Below are positions 39,894 through 48,657 of a stretch of 64,000 nucleotides of DNA, one piece after another. The stretch lies in the NCBI RefSeq assembly GCF_015775515.1, contig NZ_CP065383.1, positions 310,001-374,000 of the forward strand, given 5' to 3'. How positions within the stretch are numbered: the stretch's first letter is position 1; every line of letters begins with the position of its first letter. The stretch is from Atribacter laminatus (GTDB lineage: Bacteria > Atribacterota > Atribacteria > Atribacterales > Atribacteraceae). A model generated the notes under the pieces. It did no database searches and was not told the origin of the DNA. It saw only the letters and a program-made list of their open reading frames with translations. The position numbers and the translations under genes are program-made.

Positions 39894-40937
39894 TTACATA
39901 TTGACCACAACTTTAATTGATTCAGCTTTATGTTCATGGGCAAAAAGTAATGCTTCCTGAGATTTTTCTAAAGGAAAGCGATGGGTAATCAATGATTTTA
40001 AATCCACTCGTCCTGAATTGAGCAAATCAACACAACCGGGATAGGCATTCGCATAACGGAAAATTCCTATTATATTCAGTTCTTTATCGATGGTTTTAAT
40101 GATGTTAAAATTAAATTCAGATTGGGAAGGAAGACCAATTAAAACAACCCTTCCTCCTCTTTTCGTCACTTCAGCGGTCATTTGAGTCGTCGCAACACTT
40201 CCTGCTGTCTCAAAAACGACATGAACTCCTTTATTGCCGGTGAGATCTTGTACGGTCTTCACGACATCTTCTTTTTGAGAATTAATGGTGTGAAATGCTC
40301 CTAGTTCTTTTGCTTTTTGCAATCTCATATCAACAACATCAACTGCAATTACTTTCGTTATCCCTCTTGCTAAAAGTGATTCAATGGTTACCAAACCGAT
40401 GGTACCACTTCCTAAAACTAACGCGGTTTGCCCCGGTTCAACTCGTGCTCTACGAGTAGCGTACATACCGACCGAAAGAGGTTCAACCAGAGCCGCTTCT
40501 TCAAAAGAAACCTGGTCAGCAATTGGGTAAGTAAAACCAGCAGGATGAGTAACATATTCGCAAAATGCTCCATCAATGGGAGGTGTTGCCCAAAAAATCA
40601 CATCTGGACAAAGATTGTAACGGCCAACACGACAATTTTCACATTTGCCGCAGGGAATACCTGGTTCCATTGTTACTCGATCACCGGGCTTTAAATCTTT
40701 AACTCCAGCACCAATTTCGACAACTTCGCCAGAACACTCGTGACCTAATATAAAGGGAGGCTTAACAATATAGTCCCCAATCCGACCTTCGATAAAATAA
40801 TGGACATCCGAGCCACAGACCCCAACGCTTTTTATTCGAACTAAAACTTCATCCTCTTTTGGTTTTGGAATGGGGATATTTTCAATTTCAACTTTTTTTA
40901 TTCCTTTCATCACTGCAGCTTTCATTTGTTGAGACAT
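39894..40937 (-). CDS. Zinc-dependent alcohol/polyol dehydrogenase (sorbitol dehydrogenase-like)
   Basis: MDR-family dehydrogenase of 347 residues. Catalytic zinc is held by GVCGSDVHYF and GHECSGEVVEIG, and the structural zinc by the four Cys of CGKCENCRVGRYNLC. The Rossmann motif is LVLGSGTIGLV; the Asp in VIAVDVVD points to NAD rather than NADP. Sorbitol, xylitol or threonine are likely substrates. GGAGG precedes the ATG. An IS element sits 35 bases upstream, between it and the DJ-1 fusion gene that probably once led the same operon. Confidence 0.92.
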   Translation of the reverse strand: MSQQMKAAVMKGIKKVEIENIPIPKPKEDEVLVRIKSVGVCGSDVHYFIEGRIGDYIVKPPFILGHECSGEVVEIGAGVKDLKPGDRVTMEPGIPCGKCENCRVGRYNLCPDVIFWATPPIDGAFCEYVTHPAGFTYPIADQVSFEEAALVEPLSVGMYATRRARVEPGQTALVLGSGTIGLVTIESLLARGITKVIAVDVVDMRLQKAKELGAFHTINSQKEDVVKTVQDLTGNKGVHVVFETAGSVATTQMTAEVTKRGGRVVLIGLPSQSEFNFNIIKTIDKELNIIGIFRYANAYPGCVDLLNSGRVDLKSLITHRFPLEKSQEALLFAHEHKAESIKVVVNM

Positions 40938-40972: not shown

Positions 40973-42360
40973 CACATCTGTCCAAAATAGCTTTTTCATA
41001 TTGAAAGGGGAGTCCCAATCGGGTAGATTGGTAATTGCAAGCTAACAAAAAACCCGAAAGGTGGCTTCCCCTATGAATAAGTGTAGCAGTGTTTTTGGTC
41101 AAATTCTACAAATATTTAACCGGTATGAATTTGAAAGAATGGTCAGGAAAACCCAATCTGAAAAAGGAAGCAAGGGTTTTAGTTCCTGGGATCAATTCGT
41201 TGCCATGTTGTTCTGTCAATTAGGTCAAGCCCATTCCCTCCGAGAGATCTGTGGAGGACTGGCGACGTGCCTGGGAAAAATAAAACACTTAGGAGTGAAA
41301 GGAGCTCCCCACCGGTCAACACTGGCTTATGCCAACGAACATCGACCCTGGGAGCTCTATCAAAACATGTTCTATGCTTTGTTAGAAAAGTGCCAACCCC
41401 TCCAGAAGGGAAAGAAAAAGTTCCGCTTCAAGAATCAGCTCTTGAGCTTGGATGCTTCAACCATTGAGCTGTGTAGCACTCTGTTTGACTGGGCTCGGTT
41501 TCGGCAAACCAAAGGAGCCGTGAAGCTTCATTTGCTTTTAGACCATGAAGGCTATCTTCCGGTCTTTGCCCTCATCACCGAAGGATGCGTTCATGAGGTC
41601 AATGTTGCCCGAGAGCTTACCTTCCCCAAAGGTTCAATCTTAGCCATTGATCGAGGTTATACTGACTATGCCCTCTTTGCCCACTGGACCGACACTGGGG
41701 TTTATTTCGTCACCAGACAGAAAGACAATGCCAGTTACCGGATCATTGAAGAACGAACCGTCCCCCACCACCGTAACATCCTTCACGATGAGATCATTAC
41801 TTTTACTGGCTATTATGCCAAGCAACACTATCCTGGTCCTGTGCGACGAATCGAAGTGGATGACCGCGACAATAACCGAGTGATCGTTCTTCTGACCAAC
41901 CACCTAGAATTTGGAGCCACCACCATTGCCCGTATTTACAAGGACCGCTGGCAGATTGAAACCTTCTTTAAGACCATCAAGCAAAACTTAAAGATCAAGA
42001 CCTTTGTAGGAACCAGCCAGAATGCTCTCTTCATTCAGATTTGGACAGCACTCATCACCATCCTCCTTTTGAAGTATCTCCAGTTCCAATCAACCCGTGC
42101 CTGGTCGCTTTCAACCCTAGTCGCTTTGCTTCGTTACAATCTCTTTACCTATCGGGATTTGTGGACCTGGATCAACCATCCCTTTGAGGTTCCAGTGATT
42201 GTTCCAAATGTAACGGTGATTCCTATCCCCTTTCAATAATTTGGACAGCATCCGAAAAGAAAAAGGAGGAACCTGGTTTTGAAATGACTCATGAACCTGT
42301 CTTAAATGCTTGTGTGATAAGAGGTGATATTATGATTTCAGATTATTTTGGACAGCAGTG
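40973..42360 (+). mobile_element. IS4-family insertion sequence, intact (1388 bp)
   Basis: The ends are imperfect 17-base inverted repeats (CACATCTGTCCAAAATA at left and CACTGCTGTCCAAAATA read from the right, differing at two bases). They are flanked by a 9-bp direct duplication, ATATTGATT. One transposase gene fills the element. A near copy of the right end (TTTGGACAGCAT) lies just behind the transposase stop at about 42239-42249. The body is richer in G+C than the host DNA. Intact ends and duplication suggest a fairly recent insertion. Confidence 0.93.
41073..42239 (+). CDS. IS4-family transposase
   Basis: DDE transposase of 388 residues from ATG 41073; an upstream in-frame GTG at 41061 overlaps the ribosome site AAAGGTGG. 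It has an N-terminal DUF4372-like DNA-binding region (FSSWDQFVAMLFCQLGQAHSLREI). The catalytic Asp residues are in LSLDAST and AIDRGYTDY. The Glu is in the IS4 signature YKDRWQIETFFKTIKQNLKIKTF. All catalytic residues are present, so it may be active. It is the only gene in the element. Confidence 0.95.
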   Translation: MNKCSSVFGQILQIFNRYEFERMVRKTQSEKGSKGFSSWDQFVAMLFCQLGQAHSLREICGGLATCLGKIKHLGVKGAPHRSTLAYANEHRPWELYQNMFYALLEKCQPLQKGKKKFRFKNQLLSLDASTIELCSTLFDWARFRQTKGAVKLHLLLDHEGYLPVFALITEGCVHEVNVARELTFPKGSILAIDRGYTDYALFAHWTDTGVYFVTRQKDNASYRIIEERTVPHHRNILHDEIITFTGYYAKQHYPGPVRRIEVDDRDNNRVIVLLTNHLEFGATTIARIYKDRWQIETFFKTIKQNLKIKTFVGTSQNALFIQIWTALITILLLKYLQFQSTRAWSLSTLVALLRYNLFTYRDLWTWINHPFEVPVIVPNVTVIPIPFQ

Positions 42361-42369
42361 ATATTGATT
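42361..42369. repeat. Right target-site duplication of the IS element
   Basis: ATATTGATT, matching 40964-40972. Its last two bases are part of the stop codon (42368-42370, minus strand) of the DJ-1 fusion gene, which stays intact. Confidence 0.85.
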
Positions 42370-43348
42370 AATAATTAAATAAGTTTTCTAAATGTCTTTT
42401 ATAACCTGGCAAATTCTCGATATCACCACTGGGACAATTTTCAGAATAACGAAGAATTCCATTTTTATCGATCATGAAAATTGCCCATTCTGCCAAGCCA
42501 TTCCTTCCTTTCACTCCAAAAGCACGAATGGTATCACCGCTTACGTCGCTAAATAAAGGGTATATCAGCTCCATTTTAGTGGCATAATCTTTCTGAACAT
42601 AAATACTATCCATACTAACGGCAAGGAATTTTCCACCAAGTTGGTTAATTGATTCCGATAGACGATTGCAATCAACTAAAGCTTTCTGGGCAATGGGGCT
42701 AGCAATTGAATCAAAAAAAAGAAGAACTGTCGGTGTTTCTTTCACTATCATAGAAAAACTCATTTTTTCTAAGTGAGTATCATAAAGAAAACCTTCTGGG
42801 AATGGATTTTTTAAACGAGGTTTGGATTGTGAGAAAAAACTCATAACTTCTTTCATAAAAACTGGCAAATCATTGGGCCCTTGAGCGGTAAGAATGTTCC
42901 CATCAACCACAGTTTGATAATCGACATATTCACCACCAGCATTCACAATATCATCACGAATAGCTCGATTCCCAGTAATTCTTTTCCCCCGAACAACATC
43001 TGCAGAAATTAAAACACTTGGTCCATGGCAAAGTGCCCCAATTAGTTTTCCCTGTTGAAAAGTCTCTTTTACTAAATTTATAATTGCTGGATAACGTCGT
43101 AAATAGTCGGGGGCAAACCCTCCCGGAATAATTATTCCATCAAAATCTCGTGATGTTATCGAAGAAGCGGTTGTCTCGGGTTTTGCTGGAAAACCATTTC
43201 TTCCGGAATATAAATCGGATGATCCTGTACCTACTAACTTGGTCTCTATTCCCTCTTCTTTGAGCCGAAGTAAAGGGTACCAGAGTTCCAATTCTTGATA
43301 TAAATTCTCAATAAAAATCATTATCCTCCGATTATTCAATTGGCTCAA
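42368..43348 (-). CDS. DJ-1/PfpI domain fused to a peroxiredoxin-like domain
   Basis: A 326-residue two-domain protein. Residues about 8-173 are a DJ-1/PfpI domain with the nucleophile C107 in GALCHGP and GIIIPGGFAPDYLRR before it. Residues about 195-326 are an AhpC/TSA fold (TPTVLLFFDS, FLAVSMDS, YPLFSD, WAIFMIDKNGILRY). At the expected peroxidatic site the sequence reads FFDSIASPIA with no Cys; the only Cys residues in this domain are C227 and C306. It may therefore not be a normal peroxidase. TTG 43348 is assumed; a later TTG is possible. It lies 23 bases after the rubrerythrin gene. Confidence 0.88.
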   Translation of the reverse strand: MSQLNNRRIMIFIENLYQELELWYPLLRLKEEGIETKLVGTGSSDLYSGRNGFPAKPETTASSITSRDFDGIIIPGGFAPDYLRRYPAIINLVKETFQQGKLIGALCHGPSVLISADVVRGKRITGNRAIRDDIVNAGGEYVDYQTVVDGNILTAQGPNDLPVFMKEVMSFFSQSKPRLKNPFPEGFLYDTHLEKMSFSMIVKETPTVLLFFDSIASPIAQKALVDCNRLSESINQLGGKFLAVSMDSIYVQKDYATKMELIYPLFSDVSGDTIRAFGVKGRNGLAEWAIFMIDKNGILRYSENCPSGDIENLPGYKRHLENLFNY

Positions 43349-43371: not shown

Positions 43372-43857
43372 TTATCTACCAAGTTCTTTTTTTATTCCCA
43401 ATAAAATCGCATAATGTTTTTTCTCCTCCTGAACAACCTTCTTCAACCATTCTTTTTTATTTTCTGGAATCATGACTTCCATGCTTTCATAAAAACGTAC
43501 ACTTTCCTTTTCAACCTGCATACCAACTTCTAATGCTTTTTCCACACTGTTATCACCTTGAGTTAGATCGATACCCTGTAATACTTTTCCAAGCACACCA
43601 TTTTCAATCAATGATCCAAGGTAGTTAACTGTTTCATCCATGGTGTCGGGAACAAAATCAATTTGAGTATTTAAGTCATCCTTGGTATTTTGAAAGTATT
43701 CCAAATGCTTTTTTTCTTCTTCACTTAAAAAAATAAATATTTCTCTTGATTTTTGATCAGAAGTTTTCTTGGAAAGGTTTTCATAGAAAGCTATTCCTCT
43801 CCTTTCTAACTCAACAGCCATTTCTAATACCTCATCCGCAGAAAATTGCATGGCCAT
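43372..43857 (-). CDS. Rubrerythrin-type ferritin-like diiron protein
   Basis: A 161-residue four-helix protein from ATG 43857 (AAGGGGTG upstream). Both halves carry a Glu-rich helix (ELERRGIAFYE; QVEKESVRFYE) and an ExxH motif (EEEKKH; QEEKKH), so the diiron ligands appear complete. There is no C-terminal rubredoxin domain, unlike true rubrerythrin. It probably reduces peroxide or stores iron in the cytoplasm of an anaerobe. It heads the operon that includes the DJ-1 fusion. Confidence 0.9.
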   Translation of the reverse strand: MAMQFSADEVLEMAVELERRGIAFYENLSKKTSDQKSREIFIFLSEEEKKHLEYFQNTKDDLNTQIDFVPDTMDETVNYLGSLIENGVLGKVLQGIDLTQGDNSVEKALEVGMQVEKESVRFYESMEVMIPENKKEWLKKVVQEEKKHYAILLGIKKELGR

Positions 43858-44162
43858 AAATATCACCCCTTCATAATCACTCTTTTTAATTGTAACATGA
43901 AAACCTCTTTATACAGCACTTAAAAACTTATATTTCTTTCAAAAAAGCCACAGGTCAAACAACCGCGCCTGGTAGCTATGAAAAAACCGTATTTTTGTCA
44001 TCTTGTTTATTTCCTACTAAGGACAAATGATTGAGAAGGAGCAAGGGGTTTGGCTTTTGTTTCTTTTCCCTTGAGAAGAGAAGGTCTGGATGAAAGTGAA
44101 TCAACAATAAAGTTTTATTTCGGTTTATGTTATGATTAGGCAAAAGCGAAAGGAATCACCAT
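43858..44162. other. Intergenic region between divergent rubrerythrin and DUF4416 genes
   Basis: About 305 bases with no gene recognised. A TACAAT-like box on the minus strand about 20 bases upstream of the ribosome site and a TATGAT on the plus strand near 44132 are possible -10 boxes. No peroxide-responsive operator was recognised. Confidence 0.4.
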
Positions 44163-44729
44163 ATGGGAACTATCAAAAAACCAAATCCAGTCAAATTTTT
44201 TATTGCTGTCCTTTTTGAAAACATTTCAGTTCTTGAGTCAATAATTCCTCAGTTAGAAAAAGAATTTGGTCCAATCCAGTGGAAAAGCCCAATTATCGAT
44301 TTTACCCACACCAATTACTATCAAAAAATTGGTGAGAAACTAAAAAGGATTTTTCTGGTCTTTCAAAAACTTATTGATCCAGAGGATTTAGCCAGTCATA
44401 AAGTATTAACCAATCAGCTTGAGTCCCAAACCGGAGATACCCATGTAGCCAGAAGGATTAATCTCGACCCTGGTTATTTTGACGGGGGTAAAATCATCCT
44501 GGCTACCACCAAAAACTTTTCTCATCGTGTATATATAGGAAAGGGAATCTATGCTGAAGCAACCATCCGATGGGAAAAAGGAGATTTTCGACCTTTCGAA
44601 TACACCTATCCCGATTATGCCAGCAAAGAATACCGACCTTCTCTCATCCAAATTCGGAAACTCTACAGAGAAGATCTATCTCGAGCTTCTATCAATGAGT
44701 CAGTTCAAAGATCCCTCCCAAATATTTGA
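44163..44729 (+). CDS. DUF4416 family protein
   Basis: A 188-residue protein of unknown function. Conserved family stretches are KPVKFF-like PNPVKFFIAVLF at the start, DFTHTNYY near residue 49, RRINLDPGYFDGGKIILATTKN near 97 and GIYAEATIRWEKGDFRPFEYTYPDYAS near 128. An AAAGGAATC site precedes the ATG. The family is scattered in thermophilic and anaerobic bacteria; no reaction is known. Its end overlaps the end of the convergent msbA-like gene by 25 bases. Confidence 0.88.
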   Translation: MGTIKKPNPVKFFIAVLFENISVLESIIPQLEKEFGPIQWKSPIIDFTHTNYYQKIGEKLKRIFLVFQKLIDPEDLASHKVLTNQLESQTGDTHVARRINLDPGYFDGGKIILATTKNFSHRVYIGKGIYAEATIRWEKGDFRPFEYTYPDYASKEYRPSLIQIRKLYREDLSRASINESVQRSLPNI

Positions 44730-46429
44730 TAATAATAAGAACTATTTTTAAGCAGCTCTTGATGGGCTCCTATATCCTGAATCTCTCCGTCTTTGATCAA
44801 AACGATTCGATCTAAATCTTTAACCATTCTTAAAGAATGAGCAATCAGAATAACGATTTTATCCTTTCCGATGTGGTTGTGAATAGTATCCAAAATATAA
44901 TCTTCAGATTCTGGATCAAGGCTGGAAGTCGCTTCATCTAAAACCAGGATAGGTGGATTTTTTAAGAGAGCCCGAGCAATGGCAATTCGTTGTTTTTGTC
45001 CACCCGAAAGTCTCTTCCCCAAATCACCCAGGTCAGTATCGTAGCTGTTTTCCAAACGGACAATAAACTCATGGGCGTGCGCCCGTTGAGCTGCATCAAT
45101 TACTTCATCCATTGAGGCATTCAAGTTTCCATAGAGAATATTTTCTCGAACTGTTCCACCGAGAACCAATGAATCTTGAAGAACCACACCTATTTGTTGA
45201 CGAAGGGACGACATTTTAATTTTTCGAATATCAACACCATCAACTTCAATTCTTCCTTGATCGGGGTCATAAAATCGAAGAAGAAGATTAAGGAGGGTGG
45301 TTTTCCCCGCGCCGCTAGGGCCAACAATTCCAATCTTTTCTCCCTTGGGAATTTGGAGAGAAAAATTTTTTAATATCACTTCTCCTCCATAAGAAAAATA
45401 GATATCTTTTAAATTGATCTCCTGATTAACACTATGAATAGGTACCGATTCGGGAAGGTCCTGAATTCGGGGAGCAGTATCAAGAATTTCAAATATTCTT
45501 TCAGCTGATGCTAAACTTTGCTGCAAGCTTTGAATACCATTGGAAATATGAGAAAGAGGAGCTGCTGCTGTCGCAATATACCCCAAAAAAGCCACCAATC
45601 CTCCCGGGGTAAGTTTTCCAAATACGACTTCTCGTCCTCCAAACCAGATCATTATAGTTAAACCAACCGATGAAACCAATTCAACCAAAGGAGTTAAAAG
45701 GGCTTTAGCCTTGGCTTGTTTCATTGCCAAATAAAAATTCAGTTCATTCTCTTTTTCGAATTTTTCTACCTCATAATGGCCGCTGACATAAGATTGAATT
45801 ATTTTAATACCCGAAACCGTTCTTTCAATGAGTTGGGTTAAGACTGCAGTTTTCGACTGTAAAAGATGTGAGGCACCTCGTATTTTTTTTCCCAAATAAT
45901 CTATGCTCAATCCTACCAAGGGAAAAACCACAATGGAAAGAGTGGTGAGTTTCCAGTTAATGTAAAAACATACTCCAATTGAACCAATCAGAATGAGAAG
46001 GTCCATAAAAATATTCATAAAAGTATGAGAAAATAGGTTTTGTATATTCGTTACATCATTGGTCATACGGGAAATAATGTCCCCGGTTGGGTTTTCTTGA
46101 AAAAACGATGCCGATAGAGAATAAATGTGTTGATATAATTCAGAACGGAGCTTGGTAATAACACGAAAACCAGCTTTGGAAACCCAAAGATTCTGAATAT
46201 AAGAAGTGAGTCCTTTAATAAAAAATATAAAAACAATTCCAAAAGTTATGAATAATAATAATAACAGGTCCTTTTGAATAAGAACTCGATCAATAATAAT
46301 CTTTACCAGCCAGGGAAAAATGAGGCTTATACCTGCTCCTAAGATTCCCATAATGAGCGCTCCAGCCACCAACCCACCGTAAGGTTTGAGGTAGTTGAGT
46401 AGCCTAAAGAGACTTTTCCCTTTTATCAT
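44705..46429 (-). CDS. msbA: ABC exporter, MsbA-like lipid flippase
   Basis: A 574-residue half-transporter: six membrane helices (about 1-310), then an ATPase domain with Walker A GPSGAGKTT, signature RLSGGQKQRIAIARAL, Walker B ILVLDEATSSLD and the switch His in LIAHSLRMV. The position at the end of the lipid A operon, overlapping the LpxB paralogue by 26 bases, supports a role in flipping lipid A or a precursor across the inner membrane. Sequence alone does not exclude a multidrug exporter. Confidence 0.87.
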   Translation of the reverse strand: MIKGKSLFRLLNYLKPYGGLVAGALIMGILGAGISLIFPWLVKIIIDRVLIQKDLLLLLFITFGIVFIFFIKGLTSYIQNLWVSKAGFRVITKLRSELYQHIYSLSASFFQENPTGDIISRMTNDVTNIQNLFSHTFMNIFMDLLILIGSIGVCFYINWKLTTLSIVVFPLVGLSIDYLGKKIRGASHLLQSKTAVLTQLIERTVSGIKIIQSYVSGHYEVEKFEKENELNFYLAMKQAKAKALLTPLVELVSSVGLTIMIWFGGREVVFGKLTPGGLVAFLGYIATAAAPLSHISNGIQSLQQSLASAERIFEILDTAPRIQDLPESVPIHSVNQEINLKDIYFSYGGEVILKNFSLQIPKGEKIGIVGPSGAGKTTLLNLLLRFYDPDQGRIEVDGVDIRKIKMSSLRQQIGVVLQDSLVLGGTVRENILYGNLNASMDEVIDAAQRAHAHEFIVRLENSYDTDLGDLGKRLSGGQKQRIAIARALLKNPPILVLDEATSSLDPESEDYILDTIHNHIGKDKIVILIAHSLRMVKDLDRIVLIKDGEIQDIGAHQELLKNSSYYYQIFGRDL

Positions 46430-47564
46430 AAAAATTCTCCTGGATTAATTGAGTTAAAACTGAATCGGCTGTTGTTGGAAACTCGTCTTCTGGTATTTCA
46501 TAATCGAAATCTGAATCATGAATCATATTTTCTATTTTCCTTACCACATCTTCAGGACAAACCTTCCCCCGCAATTCAGGAAAAATTTCTCTGTTCATTA
46601 AAATGTTTGGCAAGGATACCCACTTTTTTTGACTATTCATTGAATAAATTATCTTTTTTTTAATGATAGGACCTATTCCAGGTATTTTTCCAATAAATTC
46701 TGGGATTCCAGTCAATGGTATGTTTTGACTATTCGCTTCCAAAGGTAAAATGATCAAAGCTTTCTTCTTCCGATAAAATAATTCCAAATTAGAAGACCCA
46801 GGAATGGCAATAGCAACATCAGCTTGGTTCATTAAGTGAGAGGTTACACCAAAATAAAATGGCATTTCCAATTCTCCCCAATCATCGGCTGGCACATCTT
46901 TTGTCGAATAATGTTCAGGAAAACCAACTACTGATGAGGATTTGGGAAAAATTGGAAGTAATAAACGGGCAATTTTTTTATAAAAAGGAATGAGATAATC
47001 GTAAGCAAATAACCGACTCCCTGGAAGAAACAATATTCGAGGCTCACCATGACAAAAAAAACGGTTTTCCTGCTCGGTTGGGTATTTTTTCTGTATAACA
47101 TAAGAATAAAGCAAATCACCAACAAATTTCTTTTGAGGAAATTGATACTGTTCATAATCGCGAAGAAAACGAGCTAAATATAGATCTACATACTTTGGCC
47201 AGCGTAAATGGCTCCCATAAACCCATAGAGGATATCCACTCCTCTTCTTAAGAAGGACAGCGTTATAAATATCTCCGCCCAAAAAAAGGATTAAACCCTG
47301 TCGTGGAAAGGGTAAAGGTTTTTTCCCCCAACAAATCTGTTTGGTCTCTGACGGTAAAAATACTTTGGCAATGGAATGGTTTTCTTGAATGACCTTTTGT
47401 TCATAACCTGTACTAAATTGACAGGGTGTTAAAAATATCCATATTTGGATTGGCAACTTACTGGCAATGATCGAATTCATTAAGGTCAAAGCCCAATAAT
47501 AAAGCTCTCCAGGACCATTTACCGTTATCATGACCACCGGTCGATTATCAAAGATAATTTTCAA
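46404..47564 (-). CDS. LpxB paralogue (lipid-A-disaccharide synthase-related)
   Basis: A 386-residue GT-B-like protein next to true lpxB. It shares LpxB features: a FLPGSRLFAYDYLIPFYKKIA donor region, AIAIPGSSNLELFYRKKKALIIL, and the near-identical WVSLPNILMNREIFPEL. The N-terminal GExSGD acceptor motif is replaced by VNGPGELYYWALTLMNS. It may be an inactive partner or act on a different acyl-sugar. It overlaps lpxB by 17 bases and the msbA-like gene by 26, so all three are tightly coupled. Confidence 0.83.
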   Translation of the reverse strand: MKIIFDNRPVVMITVNGPGELYYWALTLMNSIIASKLPIQIWIFLTPCQFSTGYEQKVIQENHSIAKVFLPSETKQICWGKKPLPFPRQGLILFLGGDIYNAVLLKKRSGYPLWVYGSHLRWPKYVDLYLARFLRDYEQYQFPQKKFVGDLLYSYVIQKKYPTEQENRFFCHGEPRILFLPGSRLFAYDYLIPFYKKIARLLLPIFPKSSSVVGFPEHYSTKDVPADDWGELEMPFYFGVTSHLMNQADVAIAIPGSSNLELFYRKKKALIILPLEANSQNIPLTGIPEFIGKIPGIGPIIKKKIIYSMNSQKKWVSLPNILMNREIFPELRGKVCPEDVVRKIENMIHDSDFDYEIPEDEFPTTADSVLTQLIQENFYDKREKSL

Positions 47565-48657
47565 TCACCTCAACAACTTGAGAGTAGGTATCCCCGTGAG
47601 TTAAAATCTTCCTGATTTCTTGAGCATTTTTTTGCGTAGAACTGTCTCCTGGACTATCATTAATGAGTCTTTCCATAGCTTGAGATAGATTTTCACTATT
47701 AAAATCCTTCTGAATCAACTCGGGACAAACTTCCCTATTCAGGAGGATATTTGGTAAACCAATAAACCTCTTTTTTAAAAATAACCGTGCTAAAAAATAG
47801 GTCAAATTTGACAATCGATAGACAATAATCTGTGGTATTCCCATCATGGCGACTTCCAAGGTTATTGTACCAGAACAACTTACGCTGAGTGAACTTCCTT
47901 GCAAAACCTGGTATAAGTCCTCTCTAGTCTTTAGGTTTATTGGTAATCCCGATAATTGCTTTTCAACCATATTTTTGTAATGTTCACTGGCTAATACCAG
48001 AAAAAAATCGTAATCGGGATGCCGATTGATAAAACCAACCAAGGCTTTTTTTAATATTTTTAGATATTCATTAATTTCCTTTTTCCGACTCCCTGGCAGA
48101 AAAACTATTTTCTTGTTGGTCTTATTTGAATCAATAGAATCAAAAAGAGGAATTTTTAATGCGACTGGATGGCCAACCCATTTTACTTGAGCTTGACCGC
48201 CCTTAAAATAATTATCCTCCCAAGGAAAAATAGTAAAAATCCAATCTGCATATTGAGAAAGTAGAGTTGCTCTCCGTTGATTCCAAACCCATACTTGTGG
48301 AGGTATAAAATAAATGACTGGAATGCCAATTTGGTGACATAAGCGAATAATTCTAAGGTTAAAACCCGGGTTATCTATAAGAATAACCACTGATGGAGAA
48401 ATGCCCTTGAGAATTTTTGCTGTCTTATCCCAGACCGCTTTCCACTGACGTAAGGTTGTAAGTAGCTCTAAAAAACCAAAAGTAGCAATAGCAGTCGTGT
48501 CATAAATTAAGTTGGCACCAGCTTGAACAACACTCTCTCCTCCAAGCGCAAACACCTCCAAATCACATCTTTCCTTGAGGCGTTTAATAATTTCACCAGC
48601 GTAAAAGTCGCCTGATATCTCTCCGGTTGAAATAAAAATAGATTTTTTCGGTTTCAT
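47548..48657 (-). CDS. lpxB: Lipid-A-disaccharide synthase
   Basis: GT19 enzyme of 369 residues. It joins UDP-2,3-diacylglucosamine and lipid X to form the lipid A disaccharide at the inner membrane's cytoplasmic face. It contains STGEISGDFYAGEI at the start, YFIPPQVWVWNQRRA near 118, VFLPGSRKKEINEYL, SCSGTITLEVAMMGIPQI and FIGLPNILLNREVCPELIQ. It overlaps lpxI by four bases and the paralogue by 17. Confidence 0.95.
   Translation of the reverse strand: MKPKKSIFISTGEISGDFYAGEIIKRLKERCDLEVFALGGESVVQAGANLIYDTTAIATFGFLELLTTLRQWKAVWDKTAKILKGISPSVVILIDNPGFNLRIIRLCHQIGIPVIYFIPPQVWVWNQRRATLLSQYADWIFTIFPWEDNYFKGGQAQVKWVGHPVALKIPLFDSIDSNKTNKKIVFLPGSRKKEINEYLKILKKALVGFINRHPDYDFFLVLASEHYKNMVEKQLSGLPINLKTREDLYQVLQGSSLSVSCSGTITLEVAMMGIPQIIVYRLSNLTYFLARLFLKKRFIGLPNILLNREVCPELIQKDFNSENLSQAMERLINDSPGDSSTQKNAQEIRKILTHGDTYSQVVEVIENYL

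Follow-up and report, generated by a model that had tools for sequence, protein, structure and literature searches.

A DJ-1/PfpI domain fused to a peroxiredoxin-like domain without a peroxidatic cysteine in Atribacter laminatus and its order

Is a peroxiredoxin fold that has lost its peroxidatic cysteine the product of a damaged gene or a protein put to another use, and, if the latter, to which? The question is raised by a gene in the window, the stretch of 64,000 nucleotides of Atribacter laminatus DNA (contig NZ_CP065383.1, positions 310,001 to 374,000) analysed here. A first-pass annotation, made from the letters alone, read this gene as a DJ-1/PfpI protein fused to a peroxiredoxin (Prx) fold without the peroxidatic Cys and proposed a sensor, a deglycase scaffold, or a peroxidase with relocated cysteines. 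The features of the locus are collected in Table 1.

Table 1. Features of the fusion locus, in window coordinates
Feature	Position	Strand	Details
DJ-1/PfpI + peroxiredoxin-like fusion gene	42368..43348	minus	326 aa (P0001), TTG start
DJ-1/PfpI domain, residues 7-169	42842..43330	minus	PF01965 E 8e-45; E14, D81, C107, H108
C107 codon	43028-43030	minus	
Peroxiredoxin-like domain without peroxidatic Cys, residues 181-308	42425..42808	minus	PF00578 E 1.7e-17, PF08534 E 3e-12
A220 codon, lost peroxidatic Cys position	42689..42691	minus	Ungapped alignment to Bcp SPVC
W288 codon, lost catalytic Arg position	42485..42487	minus	Aligned to Arg of LAKR/VAKR, 3hjp/2cx3
C305 codon, near-universal Cys of the Prx-like half	42434..42436	minus	21/23 aligned copies; also in L025
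Erythrin, rubrerythrin-type diiron protein without rubredoxin domain	43372..43866	minus	PF02915 E 3e-14; 23 bp upstream of fusion
Insertion sequence, 1,388 bp	40973..42360	plus	Transposase 41061-42239, PF01609 (DDE_Tnp_1) + PF14294 (DUF4372)
Zn-dependent medium-chain dehydrogenase, last operon gene	39894..40937	minus	PF08240/PF00107; downstream of fusion in 21/21 loci

The two domains and the lost peroxidatic site

Both halves of the fusion, as first described, are matched in Pfam, and the gene lies on the minus strand; the plus strand of 42368-43348 carries stops throughout. The DJ-1_PfpI, AhpC-TSA (residues 183-301), and Redoxin matches all lie above the curated cut-offs. The DJ-1 half scores 153 bits against PF01965 (cut-off 26.6) and 152 bits against TIGR01382 (cut-off 139), which places it in the DJ-1/PfpI family, and a protein search of the genome returned the fusion as the sole DJ-1 match. 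The second half carries the thioredoxin-fold AhpC-TSA/Redoxin domain of peroxiredoxins (PF00578, PF08534; 3hjp, Foldseek E 7e-13). In an AlphaFold2 model computed on the family alignment, both domains are well formed (pLDDT 89.5, pTM 0.87). The best PDB matches found by Foldseek are 3fse and PfpI proteases, with 3hjp, an archaeal Bcp4, for the Prx half; the same Bcp4 is its best PDB match by profile (E 1.9e-20). Among solved structures, the DJ-1 half comes closest to 3fse (Ava_4496; 39% identity), an Anabaena protein whose second domain is ferritin-like, whereas that of the fusion is Prx-like.

The Prx half shares the fold of the Bcp/PrxQ peroxiredoxins, including Bcp4 and the archaeal-type Bcp 2cx3, and aligns to their active-site loop without gaps (FFPAAFSPVC in 2cx3, FFDSIASPIA in the fusion). 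The SIASPIA stretch singled out by the first-pass annotation falls on the Bcp motif FxPxxF[ST]PxC, so that A220 occupies the peroxidatic site and D213 that of the motif Pro, while W288 takes the place of the catalytic Arg of Bcp (VAKRAVF). The intact PrxQ of the same genome (ATPGCTKE) has its Cys in the column of A220. Unlike Bcp/PrxQ, therefore, the fusion lacks the peroxidatic Cys of the peroxiredoxin motif P-x-x-x-(T/S)-x-x-C, the motif Pro, and the catalytic Arg, and is joined to a DJ-1 domain. None of the 23 aligned fusions has Cys at the peroxidatic column, which holds A, G, S, I, or F, and the Arg position is Trp in 22 of the 23 and Thr in the remaining one. The new residues around the dead site are themselves kept: P218 in all 23 copies, S214 and W288 in 22, D213 and S217 in 21. 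With all three active-site residues replaced, the alignments show a pseudo-peroxidase at the sequence level, and peroxidase activity is predicted to be absent.

Two further observations concern this site. The Prx half of one copy in family f3 (L021) retains the motif Pro, with a Cys right after it (YPCDFHPF), and has T288; it is possibly an intermediate. Selenocysteine at the active site, a candidate prompted by counts of one TGA in the matches of genomes G023 and G024, was rejected: the match translation (query 4-323) reads without an in-frame TGA, and the TGA is placed by inference at the upstream edge of the match.

The cysteines of the fusion protein are C107, C227, and C305. The first-pass annotation had listed C227 and C306 in the Prx half; C227 is present, and the other residue, misnumbered by one, is C305. 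C305 is missing only from genus g4 (L015, L017) among the 23 aligned fusions. It directly follows the second of two predicted strands (289-293 and 298-304), and residue 288 may pair near 303, which would put C305 near the old Arg position. The two g4 copies carry C107 and an extra C111 (CHGPC), so Cys content moves between the halves.

Distribution, selection, and the DJ-1 nucleophile

The fusion was searched in 50 genomes of the phylum Atribacterota, 25 of which belong to the order (Atribacteria). It is matched in 24 of these 25, at full length in 23, and the exception (G018) is an assembly 75% complete; identity is 84-97% within the genus and 49-58% across the order. The phylum genomes outside the order yielded matches to single-domain DJ-1 proteins only. 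A scan of named genomes found the fusion in Caldatribacterium saccharofermentans and in ‘Candidatus Atribacteria’ records, among the matches listed. No fusion was found in 1,084 sampled genomes (193 + 299 + 297 + 295) of four other phyla. Matches there end by about query residue 217, and most of the longer ones are interrupted by stops. Among 525 plasmid records, no match covered 80% of the query. Judged against this sample of four other phyla, the fusion is likely restricted to the order. None of the papers returned by a literature search describes a DJ-1 plus pseudo-peroxiredoxin architecture.

These homologues also settle whether the missing Cys is a local accident, as fused relatives with the usual residue would have implied. 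A local mutation, frameshift, sequencing error, or decaying pseudogene has practically no chance of being the explanation. The one disrupted copy, at L025 1371-2151 in a lake-sediment MAG (G007), has an internal deletion of ~64 codons and a frame change, and may be an assembly error. The Cys-less state, by contrast, is conserved order-wide, which rules out a local mutation or sequencing error. Within the genus, dN/dS is far below 1, at 0.03-0.13 in the DJ-1 half and 0.08-0.18 in the Prx half; purifying selection thus acts on each of them, and neither is decaying. With the Cys-less fusion recurring in the same small gene cluster throughout the order, and under purifying selection, the protein is real and has been repurposed.

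The nucleophile of the DJ-1 half has a different history. In Pseudomonas aeruginosa PfpI, a proven methylglyoxalase, the catalytic residues are C112, H113, and E22, with D86 contributed by the partner subunit, and the C112A and H113A variants are dead (PMC11987610). From the family alignment, C107, H108, E14, and D81 of the fusion are taken as their equivalents. All four are intact in the window protein and its congeners, in keeping with the intact C107 read earlier in this species. The PfpI/YhbO subfamily (Pyrococcus PH1704, E. coli YhbO, P. aeruginosa PfpI) has the same fold (1g2i, TM 0.89 by target length), and the fusion, in this genus, shares with it the Cys-His-Glu-Asp set and a score above the TIGR01382 cut-off. 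Unlike that subfamily, the fusion has a Prx-like domain and has lost the nucleophile in most of the order. The C-H pair is retained in genera g1 and g4 only; it is replaced by S-R throughout family f2, by G-H in genus g2 and family f3, and by H-H in f4. All twelve single-domain DJ-1 proteins that serve as outgroup in the tree retain C-H, and at least two changes are needed for the loss of the Cys on this tree, the backbone of which is unresolved. Glyoxalase chemistry can be expected, from the active-site residues, in this genus and in g4, and the DJ-1 half here is probably still a glyoxalase acting on methylglyoxal. Since most of the order has lost the nucleophile, however, a deglycase or glyoxalase role cannot be what the family as a whole has in common.

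The erythrin operon and its insertion sequence

The suggestion of a redox or carbonyl-stress neighbourhood holds up: the rubrerythrin-like gene and the Zn dehydrogenase are real, and the operon is conserved across the order. All 21 loci examined place erythrin, fusion, in some cases a protein disulfide oxidoreductase (PDO), and Zn dehydrogenase in this order on one strand, with short gaps or overlaps except at the insertion sequence of the window. The diiron-ligand pattern of erythrin (E..EExxH..E..EExxH) is kept in 21 of 21 homologues. The Zn dehydrogenase retains the Cys/His/Glu pattern characteristic of catalytic and structural zinc. A scan for operon promoters and terminators gave counts near chance. 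Beside the operon, and syntenic in most of the order, lie a DUF4416 gene (from Pfam) and, read by eye, an ABC exporter and lipid-A-synthesis-like glycosyltransferase genes (window 44163-48657).

In families f2 and f4 (L038-L044, L046, L050, L051), the gene that immediately follows the fusion encodes PDO, which scores 256-270 bits against TIGR02187 (cut-off 185) and has both CxxC motifs visible. A phylum-wide search located PDO in the majority of f2 genomes as well as in f4 and a single f5 genome, but in no f1 or f3 genome. It cannot be a universal partner of the fusion because the window's own family has none. In Sulfolobus, PDO is known to reduce Bcp1, Bcp3, and Bcp4 (PMC7465337); a PDO is encoded beside the fusion in two families. 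The operon of the Caldatribacterium relatives likewise pairs a rubredoxin-less erythrin with PDO, as in the sulerythrin/erythrin plus PDO thiol systems of thermophiles; unlike those systems, the window's family has no PDO, and the constant member is the fusion protein. The link between DJ-1 and a ferritin-like protein, made by fusion in 3fse, is made here by the operon.

The insertion sequence lies directly after the stop codon of the fusion and separates it from the Zn dehydrogenase. It has imperfect terminal inverted repeats (CACATCTGTCCAAAATA / CACTGCTGTCCAAAATA) and a 9-bp target duplication (ATATTGATT), and both same-genus loci compared at the junction (L032, L033) have an empty site. This insertion may uncouple the dehydrogenase from the operon.

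What the fusion may do

We infer that the fusion is a non-peroxidatic adaptor of an erythrin-centred peroxide and carbonyl-stress operon, and put the probability of this reading at about one half. The Prx-like half would be a binding module that keeps a docking surface for thiol-disulfide partners, such as PDO in two families, or for the enzymes of the operon, and C305 would be an accessory thiol able to form mixed disulfides. The DJ-1 half, which keeps the full PfpI active site in this genus, would here still convert methylglyoxal as a glyoxalase; most sister families have a dead site in this half too, and the scaffold role alone would remain for them. The adaptor is supported by the spread of the Cys-less fusion through the order, the re-conserved pocket, the selection on both halves, and the constant operon. 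It is also supported by the PDO encoded next door in f2 and f4, since PDO reduces Bcp4, the solved structure to which the Prx half is most closely related. The lack of PDO in the window's family and of C305 in genus g4 counts against it. We are doubtful about a bolder formulation, in which two former cysteine enzymes, DJ-1 and peroxiredoxin, were fused into a lineage-specific redox pseudoenzyme, doubly degenerate in most of the order, that would serve as a docking platform and couple a thiol-disulfide system to the rubredoxin-less diiron erythrin and the dehydrogenase; the thiol donor, acting through C305, would be PDO or, for the family of the window, a different one.

Alternatively, the protein could be a plain PfpI-type glyoxalase or deglycase with the Prx-like half as a passive oligomerisation or stability domain. 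We lean against this account but consider it possible, given that the window's genus and g4 retain all four equivalents of the PfpI catalytic residues (PMC11987610), the TIGR01382 score, and the lack of a second DJ-1 match in the genome. It fits poorly with f2, f3, f4, and g2, where the nucleophile has become Ser, Gly, or His, yet the Prx half and the operon are conserved, and with the loss of activity of PfpI on substitution of its Cys or His. A passive spacer, moreover, would not need the substituted pocket that has been re-conserved. A peroxidase with relocated cysteines was also among the earlier proposals; such a thiol peroxidase, which would use C305 or C227 and be recycled by PDO or thioredoxin, is distinctly unlikely. 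The near-universal C305 and the adjoining PDO of two families speak for it, and C305 follows a strand expected to form a hairpin with the strand after 288, so it may be near the old pocket. Against these stand the changes of catalytic Arg to Trp and active-site Pro to Asp, the g4 copies without C305, and the intact PrxQ proteins encoded elsewhere in the genomes of the order. Relocation to C227 was rejected: this position varies even within the genus (Tyr in two of six congeners), is Tyr, Leu, or Phe elsewhere, and is never Cys outside the genus.

The Cys of DJ-1 proteins is an established site of oxidation. A redox or carbonyl sensor would pass the oxidation or modification of C107 to the Prx-like half as an output module acting on the neighbouring enzymes, and the stress enzymes of the operon are consistent with such a role. 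We nevertheless regard a sensor as very improbable: Pfam found no DNA-binding or signalling domain in the fusion, and most of the order lacks C107, which would leave those proteins with no sensing residue, so that sensing by C107 cannot be the role common to the family.

For peroxiredoxins and DJ-1 proteins, function is usually read off a single cysteine, and the fusion is a warning not to label such genes peroxidase or deglycase. The order keeps a two-domain protein after losing the Prx Cys everywhere and the DJ-1 Cys in most families, in an operon that stays nearly unchanged. Because the protein is kept despite both losses, it offers a natural experiment on the roles that these folds have apart from cysteine chemistry.
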